64,000 bases of DNA from Frigoribacterium faeni (lineage in GTDB: Bacteria; Actinomycetota; Actinomycetes; Actinomycetales; Microbacteriaceae), in assembly GCF_011761235.1 (NCBI RefSeq), contig NZ_JAAOYW010000001.1:1116781-1180780 (forward strand). Direction: 5' to 3'. Below the pieces are notes generated by a model. That model saw nothing but the letters and a program-made list of their open reading frames with translations, was not told where the DNA came from and made no database searches. This document shows positions 3,756-56,645 of the stretch, piece by piece (position 1 is the first letter of the stretch; the number at the start of each line of letters is the position of its first letter). The translations under genes and the position numbers were made by a program.

Positions 3756-4643
3756 TCAGCGCTGCGGGAGACGCCGGCCGTCGGTGTCGAGGTGGTCGCG
3801 CCAGGAGCGCGTCGGGGTCCAGCCGAGCAGGCGTCGCGCCTTCGCGGTCGAGATGCCCGAGGCGTCGACGCGGTCGAGCTCGCGCAGCTCGACCTGGTCG
3901 CCGTGGTGCGCGCGCAGCGTGGCCGCGAAGTCGTGGCCGCCGGCGTTGTCCGCCGCGGCGACGTAGAACACCTCGTGGCCGGGCAGGTCCGACTCGGCCG
4001 CGAGCAGCAGCGCGTCGGCCAGGTCGTCGGAGTCGACGTAGCTGCCGAAGTTCGCGCTGGTGGGCGACGCCTCGCGCACCTGCGGGCCGAGGTTCTCCTC
4101 GTAGTTGCCGTCGTCGTGCACCGTGCTGGGACGGATGGAGATGGCACGGAGGTCCGACCTGCGGACCGCCGCGTCCATCAGCTGCTCGCCGAAGGCCTTG
4201 GAGAGGGCGTACGGGTCCTGCGGGTGCAGCGGGTGCTCCTCGTCGACCGGGACGTAGTCGGGCAGGAACGGCCGCTCCGGGAAGAAGTTGCCGACGATGC
4301 TCTCGCTCGACACGTTGACGAAGCGCGGCACGCCGAACCGGACCGCCGCCTCCACCAGGTTGAAGGTCGACATGAGGTTCGTCTGGAACACGACGTGCGC
4401 GGGGTTGCCGGTGGGCTGCGGGATGGCCGCGACGTGGACGACGGCGTCCGCGCCCGCGACGACCGCGAAGGCGGAGCCCGCGTCGGTCAGGTCGGCCATC
4501 TGGTAGCGGCCCGGCACGACCTCGCCCGCGTCGAAGACGGGACGCACCAGGTCCACGCCGAGCACGTCGTGGCCCGCCTCGACGAACCGCCGGACGGCGG
4601 CCCGGCCGACCTTGCCGCGCGACCCCGTGATGACGACCTTCAT
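3756..4643 (-). CDS. NAD(P)-dependent SDR, epimerase/dehydratase type
   Basis: The 295-residue protein is an extended SDR. It shows the nucleotide loop TGSRGKVG (about 6-13), an aspartate (GVDL) after the second strand that favours NAD, NVSSES at the catalytic serine strand and YALSK (the YxxxK pair) in DPYALSKAFGEQ. The overall pattern resembles uronate dehydrogenase and related NAD-dependent sugar oxidoreductases, but the substrate cannot be read from sequence. The ATG at 4643 follows AGGGGA. No partner gene is adjacent in the same direction. Confidence 0.9.
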   Translation of the reverse strand: MKVVITGSRGKVGRAAVRRFVEAGHDVLGVDLVRPVFDAGEVVPGRYQMADLTDAGSAFAVVAGADAVVHVAAIPQPTGNPAHVVFQTNLMSTFNLVEAAVRFGVPRFVNVSSESIVGNFFPERPFLPDYVPVDEEHPLHPQDPYALSKAFGEQLMDAAVRRSDLRAISIRPSTVHDDGNYEENLGPQVREASPTSANFGSYVDSDDLADALLLAAESDLPGHEVFYVAAADNAGGHDFAATLRAHHGDQVELRELDRVDASGISTAKARRLLGWTPTRSWRDHLDTDGRRLPQR

Positions 4644-35799: not shown

Positions 35800-35851
35800 G
35801 GGGAGGACCGTACCCCTCGTCGCGCCCCCGTGACCCCGGGCGGAGGTGGTG

Positions 35852-37378
35852 CTAGTGACCGCCGCCGAGGGTGCCCGCGAGGCGGCCGTGCACGGCTGCG
35901 CTGGGGGCGTTCATGCCCTCGATGCGCGCGTGCTTGCCGTGCCGCTCGTACTTGGTCGTGATCGCGTCGAGGGCGGCGACGGTGGAGGCGTCCCAGACGT
36001 GCGACCCGGAGAGGTCGATGACGACCGCCTCGGGGTCGCCGGCGTAGTCGAACTGGGTGGTGAGCTCGTTGCTCGAGGCGAAGAACAGGGCCCCGGTGAC
36101 GGTGTAGCGCGCCTCCTCGACTCCGTCCGTGGTGGCGGTGAGGGTGCGGTCGACGGTCGCGAGGTGGGCGACCCGGCGGGCGAAGACGACCATGGCCGCG
36201 ACGACCCCGACCACGACGCCGATCGCGAGGTTGTGCGTCACGACCACGACCACGACGGTCAGGACCATGACGACGGTCTCGCCCAGGGGCATGCGCCTCA
36301 GGGTCGAGGGCCGGATGCTGTGCCAGTCGAACGTGCCGACGCTGACCATGACCATGACGGCCACGAGCGCGGCCATCGGGATGACGGCGACGACGTCGCC
36401 GAGGCCCACGACGAGCACCAGCAGGAACACCCCGGCCATGAACGTCGAGATGCGGGTCCGGGCGCCGGAGGCCCTGACGTTGATCATCGTCTGGCCGATC
36501 ATCGCGCAGCCGCCCATGCCGCCGAAGAAGCCGGAGAGGATGTTCGCGCCGCCCTGGCCGAGGGTCTCGCGCTTCTTGCGGCTCGGCGTGTCGGTGATGT
36601 CGTCGACGAGCTTCGCCGTCATGAGCGACTCGAGGATGCCGACGAGCGCCATCGCGAGGGCGTAGGGGGCGATGATCGCGAACGTCTCGCCCGTGAACGG
36701 CACGGACGGCAGGAACAGGCTGGGGAGGCTGTCGGGCAGCTCGCCCTCGTCTCCCACCGTCGGGACGGCGATCGCCGCCACGACGGTCGCCGCGGTGAGG
36801 AGCACGATCGCGACGAGCGGCGCGGGGACCACGGTCGACAGCCGCGGCAGGAAGACCATGATCGCGATGCCGATCGCGACGAGCGGGTAGACGACCCAGG
36901 GCACGTCGACGAGGTTCGGCAGCTGTGCGGTGAAGATGAGGATCGCGAGGGCGTTCACGAAGCCGACCATGACGCTGCGGGGCACGAAGCGCATGAGCCT
37001 CGCGATGCCGACCAGGCCGAGGACCAGCTGGAACACGCCGGCGAGGATCACGGTGGCGATGAAGTAATCGAGCCCGTGCTCGCGGGCGACCGGGGCGATG
37101 ACGAGCGCGATCGCGCCGGTCGCGGCCGTGATCATCGCGGGCCGGCCGCCGAGGAACGCGATGGACACGGCCATCACGAACGAGGAGAACAGCCCGACAC
37201 GGGGGTCGACCCCGGCGATGATCGAGAACGAGATGGCCTCGGGGATGAGGGCGAGGGCGACGACCAGGCCGGCGACGACCTCGCGGCTGAGGGTCTTCGG
37301 GTGGCGGAGGGCGCTGAGGACGGTGGGCCCGTCGTGCGGCGGGGGCTGCACGACGGAGGCGGTGGCGGCGATGGGCAT
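35852..37378 (-). CDS. SulP-family anion transporter with STAS domain
   Basis: The 508-residue protein has the SulP membrane domain (about ten to twelve helices; AGLVVALALIPEAISFSIIAG, FFGGMGGCAMIGQTMINV) and a C-terminal STAS domain (about 415-508; VVIDLSGSHVWDASTVAALD). Family members take up sulfate or bicarbonate; no carbonic anhydrase or sulfate-assimilation gene is adjacent, so the ion is undecided. A 28-bp perfect palindrome lies 117 bp upstream. Confidence 0.93.
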   Translation of the reverse strand: MPIAATASVVQPPPHDGPTVLSALRHPKTLSREVVAGLVVALALIPEAISFSIIAGVDPRVGLFSSFVMAVSIAFLGGRPAMITAATGAIALVIAPVAREHGLDYFIATVILAGVFQLVLGLVGIARLMRFVPRSVMVGFVNALAILIFTAQLPNLVDVPWVVYPLVAIGIAIMVFLPRLSTVVPAPLVAIVLLTAATVVAAIAVPTVGDEGELPDSLPSLFLPSVPFTGETFAIIAPYALAMALVGILESLMTAKLVDDITDTPSRKKRETLGQGGANILSGFFGGMGGCAMIGQTMINVRASGARTRISTFMAGVFLLVLVVGLGDVVAVIPMAALVAVMVMVSVGTFDWHSIRPSTLRRMPLGETVVMVLTVVVVVVTHNLAIGVVVGVVAAMVVFARRVAHLATVDRTLTATTDGVEEARYTVTGALFFASSNELTTQFDYAGDPEAVVIDLSGSHVWDASTVAALDAITTKYERHGKHARIEGMNAPSAAVHGRLAGTLGGGH

Positions 37379-37494
37379 GGGGGTGCTCCGTTCGAGAGGC
37401 GGACGGCGGTCCGCGAGGGTGAGGTCGGGGGCGCGTCGTCGCGCGTGCCGGTCGCAGAGGACTCGGCTGGAGATCGGGGCCCGAGGGCACCCCC

Positions 37495-37522
37495 GACTCT
37501 ACCCTCACGTGAGGGTAGAGTC
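37495..37522. promoter_or_regulatory. 28-bp perfect palindrome upstream of the SulP gene
   Basis: GACTCTACCCTCAC (37495-37508) is followed directly by its exact reverse complement. It lies 10 bp past the DoxX stop and 117 bp before the SulP start. On the minus strand TGGACT and TAGAGT fall 17 bp apart around its centre, so it occupies a promoter spacer like MerR- or SoxR-type operators (SoxR boxes also contain CCTCA...TGAGG). It could also act as a terminator hairpin, but has no loop and no T-run. Confidence 0.7.
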
Positions 37523-37532
37523 CACCGGCGCC

Positions 37533-37898
37533 TCAGGACACGGCGACCGCCGCGAGGACCGTCGAGCCGAGGGTGACGACGGCCAGGGCGAGCTGGACGA
37601 CGGCGGGCTCCCGGCGCCGCAGGTGGACGACGACGGCTCCCGCCATCAGGACGGTCAGGCACGCGCCGGCGACGGGGCTGAGCACCTCGGCGACGCCCAG
37701 GGCGACGGGCAGCACGAGCCCGACCGCACCGAGCACCTCGGCCAGCCCGAGGAGCTTGACGACAGGCAGAGGGACGCTCTCGGTCCAGCCCATGCCTGCG
37801 GCCTGCAGAGCCGACCGCGGGCGGACGACCTTCGTCGCCCCCGCCCCGGCGTAGAGCACGGCGACAAGGCCGGCGACGATCCAGAACGCGGCGGTCAT
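37533..37898 (-). CDS. DoxX-like membrane protein
   Basis: The 121-residue protein has four membrane helices and the DoxX-like pattern: VAVLYAGAGATKVVRP, KLLGLAEVLGAVGLVLP, ACLTVLMAGAVVVHLRRRE. Function is undefined in the family; often it is an accessory to redox proteins. Its ATG overlaps the stop of the SnoaL-like gene (ATGA). Confidence 0.9.
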   Translation of the reverse strand: MTAAFWIVAGLVAVLYAGAGATKVVRPRSALQAAGMGWTESVPLPVVKLLGLAEVLGAVGLVLPVALGVAEVLSPVAGACLTVLMAGAVVVHLRRREPAVVQLALAVVTLGSTVLAAVAVS

Positions 37899-38302
37899 GA
37901 CGCGCTGCCCGCGGGGACGATGACCCGGCGCGCGATGCGCCACCCGGCTGGTCCCCGCCGCACGACGTCGTGGTTCACGACGACGCCCACCGTGTTGTCT
38001 CTCATCAGCATCAGGCCCTTCGAGTCGACCAGCGCCTCCTCGTCCCCTCCCCGGGCGATGACGACGTTCGTCACCAGGTGGGCGACGGGGCCGTGGGCGC
38101 CCATCTGGCGCGCGGCCTCGCGCGCTCCGTCGATGCCGTGGACGACGGGCATCCCCAGCGCGCTCATGTCGTAGACGACGTCGGCCGTGAAGACGGCGTC
38201 GATCTCGTCCAGCCTGCCGTCGTCGAAGACGTGCCCCACCAGGCTCAGCGTCTCGGCGATGTCCATGCGGTCCTCGGTGTCCATGCGGTCCTCGGTGTCC
38301 AT
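37895..38302 (-). CDS. SnoaL/NTF2-like protein
   Basis: The 135-residue protein has an NTF2-like fold: LSLVGHVFDDGRLDEIDAVFT, GIDGAREAARQ, AHLVTNVVI and GPAGWRIARRVIVP. It is probably a small polyketide-cyclase- or isomerase-like enzyme or an accessory. The N-terminus is a perfect duplication, MDTEDR-MDTEDR-MDIAE, coded by an 18-bp tandem repeat, giving three in-frame ATGs each preceded by GAGGA. It is the first gene of an operon with DoxX, under a TetR-type operator. Confidence 0.87.
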   Translation of the reverse strand: MDTEDRMDTEDRMDIAETLSLVGHVFDDGRLDEIDAVFTADVVYDMSALGMPVVHGIDGAREAARQMGAHGPVAHLVTNVVIARGGDEEALVDSKGLMLMRDNTVGVVVNHDVVRRGPAGWRIARRVIVPAGSAS

Positions 38303-38341
38303 GTCGTTCCTCTCGGTCGCGCCGGCCCGAGCGAGCCGACG

Positions 38342-38372: not shown

Positions 38373-38426
38373 AAGCCCACACGGGTTCGGGTACGCGAAC
38401 GGACCCGATCCGATAGCGTTGGGGGC

Positions 38427-39023
38427 ATGACGGACGCCCTCTCCCTGGTGGAGCGCAAACAGGAGGCGGCCCGCGGGCGCATCGAGCGCGCGGCCGCCGA
38501 GCTGTTCGACGAGCGCGGCTTCGACGGCGTCTCCGTGTCGGACATCGCCGAGCGGGCCGAGGTGGGTCGGACCACGTTCTTCCGGCACTTCACGGACAAG
38601 CAAGAGGTCGTCTTCGCCCGGGAGCGCGCGATCCTCGACTCGCTGACCGTCGACGCCCTCGGGCCGGTGCCGTCCGGTCGTCGCTCCGCGAGCGACGCCG
38701 TGAGGGCCCTGCAGCCGGTCGTCCTCGAGATCTGTGCCCGCGTCAGCGAGGACGCGGAGGAGTACCGGCGACACGAACGGCTGGTCCGGGACAACGTCGT
38801 GCTGCAGGGTCGCAGCGCGGCCAAGGCCCAGGTCGTCGCCGGCCGGCTCCGCTCGCTGCTGGTGGACGCGGGGTGGGACGACGAGGTCGCGAGCTTCGCC
38901 GGCCAGATCGCCGTGGCCTGCTACGCGACCGCCCAGGCGGCCTCCCCCGCGCCCGAGGCCGTCGTCGCGGCGACCCGCGCCGCGTTCGAGCAGGCCCTGG
39001 CCCTCGGCACGGAGGCGCGCTGA
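38427..39023 (+). CDS. TetR-family transcriptional regulator
   Basis: The 198-residue protein has a TetR helix-turn-helix at residues 15-61 (AAAELFDERGFDGVSVSDIA, TFFRHFTDKQEVVFA) and a helical ligand domain. The recognition helix is nearly the same as in the TetR protein at 374 (TFFRHFTDK). TAGCGT (38414-38419) ends 7 nt before the ATG, so the mRNA is probably leaderless. It is the likely repressor of the divergent SnoaL/DoxX operon. Confidence 0.93.
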   Translation: MTDALSLVERKQEAARGRIERAAAELFDERGFDGVSVSDIAERAEVGRTTFFRHFTDKQEVVFARERAILDSLTVDALGPVPSGRRSASDAVRALQPVVLEICARVSEDAEEYRRHERLVRDNVVLQGRSAAKAQVVAGRLRSLLVDAGWDDEVASFAGQIAVACYATAQAASPAPEAVVAATRAAFEQALALGTEAR

Positions 39024-55865: not shown

Positions 55866-56645
55866 ATGTTCAGAACTAGTACAGCCCCAGACCCTTCCGA
55901 ATTTGCCCGAAAGCGCGTCGTCGTCACCGGCGGCTCCCGCGGCATCGGAGCAGCCATCGTCCAGCGCTTCCTCGACGGCGGCGCGAGCGTCGTGACTACC
56001 GCGCGAACCGCCACCGACGAGAGCCCGGCGGGTGCGACCTTCATCCAGGGTGACGTCAGCAGCAACGACGGCGTCCAGGCTTTCGCCACGGCCGCCCTCG
56101 ACTCCCTCGGCGGTGTCGACGTCATCATCAACAACGCTGGCGCAGCCCGCGCTCACCTCGGCGGAATCGGGTCCATCCCGGACGAGGAATGGATCGATGC
56201 CCTCAACCTCAACTACCTCTCCGCCGTCCGCCTCACCGGCGCTCTCTTGCCCGCCCTCCGCGCTGCCGGCGCCGGCAGCGCGGTCGTCAACATCTCTTCC
56301 GGTGCCGCAGTCACCCCGCAGGGCCCGATGGCGCACTACGGTGCCGCGAAGGCCGCCCTCGCCGCCTACGGCAAGGCGCTCGCCTCCGAACTCGCCCCAG
56401 CCGGCATCCGGGTCACCACCGTCACTCCCGGCAACGTCCTCACCCCGGGCGCCGACGCTCTCCGTCAGACGATCGCCGACGCGATGGGGGTGCCCCTCGA
56501 AGCGACGACCGCGGGCGTTCCCCTCGGCCGCCCCGGCGATCCGCGCGATGTCGCCGAAGCGGTGGCGTACCTGGCCTCCGACCGCGCCCAATGGGTCACC
56601 GGCGCGAACCTCGTCGTCGACGGCGGCGAACTCCCCACCTTCTGA
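55866..56645 (+). CDS. Classical SDR oxidoreductase
   Basis: The 259-residue protein is a classical SDR: VVVTGGSRGIGAAIV, VVTTART (NADP-type), INNAGAARAHLGG, HYGAAKAALAAYG (YxxxK) and VTPGNVLTPG. The ATG at 55866 is leaderless by the TATTGT box 7 nt upstream; a longer reading from 55809 would run through the operator. It is first in an operon with the SDR at 56763. Confidence 0.94.
   Translation: MFRTSTAPDPSEFARKRVVVTGGSRGIGAAIVQRFLDGGASVVTTARTATDESPAGATFIQGDVSSNDGVQAFATAALDSLGGVDVIINNAGAARAHLGGIGSIPDEEWIDALNLNYLSAVRLTGALLPALRAAGAGSAVVNISSGAAVTPQGPMAHYGAAKAALAAYGKALASELAPAGIRVTTVTPGNVLTPGADALRQTIADAMGVPLEATTAGVPLGRPGDPRDVAEAVAYLASDRAQWVTGANLVVDGGELPTF

Follow-up and report, generated by a model that had tools for sequence, protein, structure and literature searches.

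The stretch of DNA analysed here (64,000 nucleotides, hereafter ‘the window’) carries a gene for a SulP transporter that is preceded by a long palindrome. The features that bear on the interpretation of this palindrome are given below, with the basis for each in parentheses.

37495..37522, no strand: presumed operator of the SulP-associated MerR regulator, with the core ACCCTCAC/GTGAGGGT at 37501-37516 (chance expectation, conservation and PWM score)
37496..37501, minus strand: predicted −10 element TAGAGT of the SulP promoter, within the palindrome (conservation among aligned sites)
37519..37524, minus strand: weak −35-like TGGACT, tentative and not conserved, 17 bp from the −10 element (sequence)
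35852..37378, minus strand: SulP/SLC26 anion transporter with a STAS domain, the presumed target (Pfam Sulfate_transp and STAS)
37533..37898, minus strand: DoxX-like gene, in the place where relatives have merR (Pfam DoxX_2)
37898..38302, minus strand: SnoaL-like gene, in an apparent operon with the DoxX-like gene, listed as context only (Pfam SnoaL_4)
about 38421-39023: gene for a TetR-family protein, the nearest regulator gene to the palindrome that we identified

The start codon of the SnoaL-like gene is ambiguous because of a short tandem repeat at 38260-38303, which is located in the 5′ part of the gene and encodes MDTEDRMDTEDRMD.

Read directly, positions 37495-37522 form a 28-bp perfect palindrome whose 14-bp arms, GACTCTACCCTCAC (37495-37508) and GTGAGGGTAGAGTC (37509-37522), meet without a spacer, as a preliminary description of this DNA had stated. 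The palindrome begins 10 bp past the stop codon of the DoxX-like gene, and the start codon of the SulP gene (ATG, 37376-37378) follows 116 bp downstream of it. No other perfect palindrome in the window is as long; the next has 13-bp arms (56258-56283), and then come arms of 11 bp. In 60 windows simulated with a first-order Markov model of matching composition, no arm exceeded 12 bp, which bears out the earlier judgement that chance is an unlikely source. The 26-bp core is single-copy in the 3.2 Mb genome even when as many as three mismatches are allowed. A long inverted repeat, perfect or nearly so, is a feature of MerR-family operators, and the 14-bp arms agree with this. The preliminary description was also right that no MerR gene is adjacent, given that none of the six PF13411 matches in the source genome falls inside the window, and that a tblastn search of the window with two MerR proteins found no remnant of such a gene (best E 0.68).

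The second-longest perfect palindrome of the window, CCGCGCTGCCGGCGCCGGCAGCGCGG, is rich in G+C and likewise exceeds the Markov control. It is perhaps a terminator hairpin.

Conservation of the motif with MerR-SulP gene pairs

With at most one mismatch, the core TACCCTCACGTGAGGGTA was found in 17 of the 60 genomes searched, the source genome included. These comprise 14 of the 16 genomes of the genus and three others, and in the two congeners that escape this search (G002 and G003) the site reads CGACCCTTACGTTAGGGTAG. In all 15 congeners searched, the motif is located between divergently oriented SulP and MerR genes.

The wider distribution of this arrangement is evident from a MerR protein search of named genomes, from which the best 80 of at least 573 confirmed loci were taken. 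These loci span Curtobacterium, Cryobacterium, Clavibacter, Rathayibacter, Arthrobacter, Agromyces, Leucobacter and Georgenia, among others. A divergent SulP gene is located upstream, within about 750 bp, at 72 of these best 80 loci. Of the eight loci that lack one, two (L091 and L145) extend only a short way beyond the gene and two (L099 and L141) have a SulP gene on the other side. The sequence ACCYTNACGTNARGGT is present with at most two mismatches in 66 of the 72 divergent pairs from named actinobacteria (exactly in 43), leaving six pairs without the motif at this threshold. Markov resampling of the same 72 regions gave a mean of 0.1 matches and a maximum of one in 20 runs, and 100 shuffled mirrored decoy patterns gave a mean of 1.3 and a maximum of 18, where the decoy that reached 18 may closely resemble the true pattern. 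Alignment of 63 unique sites yielded, in the direction of SulP, the logo A(−8)CCCT n ACGT n AGGGTAGnGTT, with three of the 66 sites left out because they were identical to another or too near the end of a locus.

Viewed from the side of the transporter, the genus provides 20 SulP loci (L052-L071) in 16 genomes, with L072-L079 omitted as second pieces of genes already counted. An adjacent MerR gene is present at 16 of the 20, namely in the 15 congeners and at a second locus of the source genome (the C2 locus), and all 16 carry the site with zero or one mismatch over 20 bp. Three of the four loci without MerR (in G002, G003 and G006) are also without the site, their best matches having 7-8 mismatches, and the fourth is that of the window, where the site is present without a mismatch. 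Because every MerR-adjacent locus carries the site and three of the four MerR-less loci do not, the site and the regulator go together, and the window is an exception that kept the site without an adjacent MerR gene. The sequence is conserved beside both a MerR gene and a target gene in relatives, whereas in the window the regulator gene is not adjacent. In G045 and G114, another gene is also present between the operator and MerR, and in these two genomes and G212 MerR is found only about 1.5-1.7 kb from the operator. Conservation before the orthologous SulP genes was the test that the preliminary description had set beforehand, and the site is indeed conserved there, with MerR across it in most relatives.

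The three further SulP genes that have neither MerR nor operator (L068 in G002, L069 in G006 and L071 in G003) share a different upstream stretch, which reads CTAAAGTCGAACGCGCCGCATCGCGG or differs from it by one base.

In broader samples, too, the strict motif mostly accompanies SulP genes. It was found in 18 of 297 genomes of the order sample, where 15 of the 19 sites have a SulP gene within 1.5 kb, and in seven of 396 genomes of the phylum sample, where all eight sites do. The two samples have three sites in common, and a reversed control pattern had no match in either. Because no SulP gene was found within 1.5 kb of four of the 19 order-sample sites (L042, L046, L048 and L049, in two other families of the order), the motif may also serve other regulators. 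At L042, the motif (1501-1520) is flanked by genes that we read as acetyltransferase-like and acyl-CoA-synthetase-like, and a 36% identical MerR is encoded about 0.8 kb away.

We consider it highly probable from these patterns of conservation that a small MerR-family regulator devoted to SulP transporters uses the palindrome as its operator. A dimer of this protein would bind the two ACCCT/AGGGT half-sites around the central ACGT and, once bound, would cover TAGAGT, the −10 region of the SulP promoter, thereby setting SulP expression. In most relatives, where the regulator gene is divergent from sulP, one operator would serve both genes. For a clade of actinobacterial SulP/SLC26 transporters, the palindrome and its partner would thus supply a candidate regulator and its DNA motif, and sequence matches to the motif are enough to find most of its targets.

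Two sites and one regulator in the source genome

The source genome has two copies of the strict motif, both before SulP genes: one in the window and one at C2:948219-948238. When three mismatches are allowed, a third place appears, and the reversed control then also gives one. The C2 motif is located between the second SulP gene and the gene for the only strong homologue of the MerR regulator in the genome (198.1 bits; the next scores 34.6). This protein, hereafter C2 MerR, is 67% identical to the F. faeni regulator, and in the DNA-binding regions of the two proteins 52 of 65 residues agree and the stretch SLRTIRHYDEVGLL is identical.

The two sites were scored with an operator PWM made from 48 unique sites, for which the Frigoribacterium loci L080, L125 and L157 were excluded and L086, whose record is titled Frigoribacterium, was kept. 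The window palindrome scores 43.5 and the C2 operator 33.8, where the 48 sites themselves have a median of 45.6 and a range of 23.4-52.6. Homology between the window and the F. faeni contig, as found by blastn, extends from 35817 to 37521 and stops at the far edge of the palindrome. The operators in these two sequences differ at one base in the inner 26 bp and at three in the full 28 bp, and the alignment is poor in the stretch that separates the operator from the final ~70 bp upstream of sulP. Identity of the window SulP to its counterparts is 87% in G006, 85% in G002 and 80% in G003, and those genes are found in other surroundings. At the C2 locus, a neighbouring gene that we read as a glycoside hydrolase is shared with G007 and F. 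sp. Leaf8 (L028, L031 and L125), with no match at the F. sp. PhB160 locus (L157). Because of this shared neighbour, the C2 locus looks like the resident copy. Our reading of the window is that a SulP-operator unit may have lost merR, or left it behind, with the operator retained.

If C2 MerR, encoded beside the second SulP gene, recognises both sites, it would control both SulP genes and act in trans on that of the window, which we judge to be probable. Its binding to the window site is not certain, because its own operator is the less perfect of the two. The window palindrome is very probably part of an ordinary kind of switch, whose regulator gene is normally adjacent but here is located elsewhere in the genome. 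The source genome offers a natural test of trans regulation after the loss of a second regulator.

An alternative that shares the operator assignment but not the action in trans is that the palindrome is a relic, a MerR-type operator left without a regulator when the window SulP lost its control along with merR. This would fit with the lack of MerR in the window, with the limited identity between the surviving regulator and that of F. faeni, and with the differences between the operator of the survivor and that of the window. Furthermore, a −10 element inside the palindrome would alone preserve part of one arm. However, the palindrome is perfect and its motif score is near the median of sites from other genomes even though the adjoining DNA has diverged, and the genome still encodes one MerR whose recognition stretch is the same. 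We therefore regard a relic as rather unlikely.

The palindrome could also be the terminator hairpin of the upstream DoxX-like/SnoaL-like operon, with a 12-pair stem and a 4-base loop. Its start so soon after the DoxX stop codon is suited to this role, and the hairpin appears when a 76-nt stretch is folded to minimum energy (z −3.4 versus 200 shuffles). However, no T-run follows, a scan of 37300-37700 finds no terminator, and this sequence is also maintained where merR and sulP diverge and neither gene runs into it. In several congeners, moreover, the two bases at position 3 from the centre do not pair. Thus, we consider this function very improbable, although the palindrome may end transcripts here as a side effect. 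There is even less reason to invoke a different regulator such as the TetR-family protein, which is encoded nearest of the regulators identified, given that the palindrome accompanies MerR-SulP pairs in relatives and that homology around SulP ends short of the TetR gene in the compared stretches of F. faeni, G002 and G003.

Characteristics of the candidate regulator and of the predicted SulP promoter

The F. faeni regulator matches the Pfam families MerR_1, MerR and MerR-DNA-bind, and scores under the cut-off of all 17 NCBIfam models that it matched. No cysteine is present in 82 of 84 homologues of the regulator, and the other two have a single one. Metal-sensing MerR proteins were rejected as a class on both grounds, where the scores in bits and the cut-offs are 69.4 and 147.4 for CueR, 67.3 and 167.95 for ZntR, 63.7 and 150.85 for MerR, and 59.5 and 151.45 for CadR-PbrR. 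The score for NmlR is 46.3, against a cut-off of 175. The preliminary description had likened the palindrome to SoxR-type MerR operators, and the MerR part of this comparison stands, since the site is conserved with MerR genes. The SoxR part does not, because the regulator scores 31.4 bits against a cut-off of 116.9 for the SoxR model and SoxR requires a cysteine-bound iron-sulphur cluster. In addition, CCTC is located at −6 to −3 from the centre of the window palindrome, whereas it is at −9 to −6 in the SoxR site.

An AlphaFold2 model of C2 MerR (132 aa, monomer, 31 sequences; mean pLDDT 91.9) consists of a winged-helix domain and, after it, a single long helix (91-131), with no further element, and thus this single-chain model suggests that the protein has no visible classical sensor domain. 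Good matches in the PDB include MtaN bound to DNA (1r8d, best E 1.1e-7), CadR, and an HiNmlR structure described as ‘lacking the sensor domain’ (5d90_C, TM 0.68), where MtaN is a truncated fragment of Mta. Identity of C2 MerR to MtaN and HiNmlR is only 23-30%, and because CadR and CueR, both with metal sites, give matches of similar quality, the absence of a sensor does not follow from the structure search alone. A MerR protein with neither a visible sensor domain nor cysteines raises the question of what, if anything, is sensed.

Hexamers resembling −35 and −10 elements had been described as symmetric about the palindrome. TAGAGT is present on both strands, and on the SulP side a −10 element is conserved, with TAGNGT at +8 to +13 in 54 of the 63 unique sites that were aligned. 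No conserved −35 element stands out on these 63 sites when spacers of 13-23 are scored. The mean match to TTGACA towards SulP is 2.05 of 6 at a spacer of 17 and 2.13 at 19, and towards MerR it is 2.44 of 6 at spacers of 17 and 20. A sigma-70 scan of 37300-37700 also found no promoter-like pair.

The sites of MerR, CueR and ZntR resemble that of the window in having a long inverted repeat in a promoter and a MerR-type dimer, whose binding is predicted here. The operator is often located between divergent regulator and transporter genes in the layouts described in excerpted text of PMC1526738 and PMC9909328, which also give 19-20 bp as the usual MerR promoter spacer. MerR, CueR and ZntR promoters have such spacers, whereas here no −35 element is conserved and the best by-eye fit in the window gives 17 bp. 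Because the site is located over the −10 element, repression is suggested, and the 17-bp spacer would suggest the same if TGGACT is the −35 element. Thus, repression by the SulP-associated MerR seems somewhat more likely than activation, although our confidence is low both for the sign of control and for the signal. A precedent may be the strong palindrome of a CadR-type site in Brucella, whose sole promoter-like match has a 17-bp spacer, and for which loss of regulation, or repression without activation, were the readings given (PMC1526738, excerpted text). That site is a single odd case, whereas the 17-bp layout described here, if real, would be family-wide.

Taken jointly, these characteristics allow a more elaborate proposal that we offer tentatively, as somewhat less likely to be correct in full than not. 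The sensor-less and cysteine-less MerR would be a dedicated SulP repressor that acts via a 17-bp-spaced promoter, rather than a switch that distorts DNA to activate. An incoming second SulP whose own MerR was lost would have been captured by the MerR of the resident paralogue, giving a two-transporter regulon controlled in trans.

Published relatives and the transported anion

None of the CueR, HmrR, MerR and ZntR signals given in the excerpted text of PMC1526738 is the same as the motif ACCCTnACGTnAGGGT, and the 14-bp core was not found under six spellings in the literature searched. No palindrome operator of this kind is described in the portions of PMC5045206, PMC4531530, PMC9909328 and PMC1526738 that we consulted, and no study of a MerR regulator of SulP or SLC26 genes was evident, by title and start of abstract, among the matches listed. 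The gene pair itself is already in print for two plasmids: the SLP module of the Arthrobacter plasmids pA8H1 and pA40H2 consists of a MerR regulator and a sulfate permease (SulP) (PMC6305408, excerpted text), in which there is no mention of an operator. Between the divergent SulP and MerR genes of pA8H1 (L200) and pA40H2 (L201), around 4001-4029, we found a 29-base match to the region of the window palindrome with 93% identity. The SLP module has a sulphur-dioxygenase/rhodanese cluster beside it, and differs in this from the window, which also is missing MerR. As a regulatory pair, MerR and SulP seem to have been little studied.

The solved structures nearest in sequence to the window SulP are 5da0 (E 6e-147) and 5iof (4e-125), deposited as ‘Sulphate transporter’, which we take to be SLC26Dg of Deinococcus geothermalis. 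Transport of fumarate in proteoliposomes has been reported for SLC26Dg (PMC6497670, excerpted text). The plasmid SulP copies point to a sulphur anion as the substrate instead, given their location beside the sulphur-dioxygenase cluster (PMC6305408, excerpted text). Sulphur-dioxygenase-like (MBL) and rhodanese genes adjoin the MerR-SulP pair on the two plasmids, and among the other 88 loci scanned such genes are found, at a greater distance, at one (L032). Only F. faeni, represented by two copies of a single locus, has a gene that we read as TauE-like close to the pair. Thus, the neighbourhood gives no general rule on the substrate of SulP. On the Antarctic Arthrobacter plasmids, a ‘metal-sensitive transcriptional regulator’ also adjoins the pair, along with the MBL-fold enzyme and the rhodaneses.
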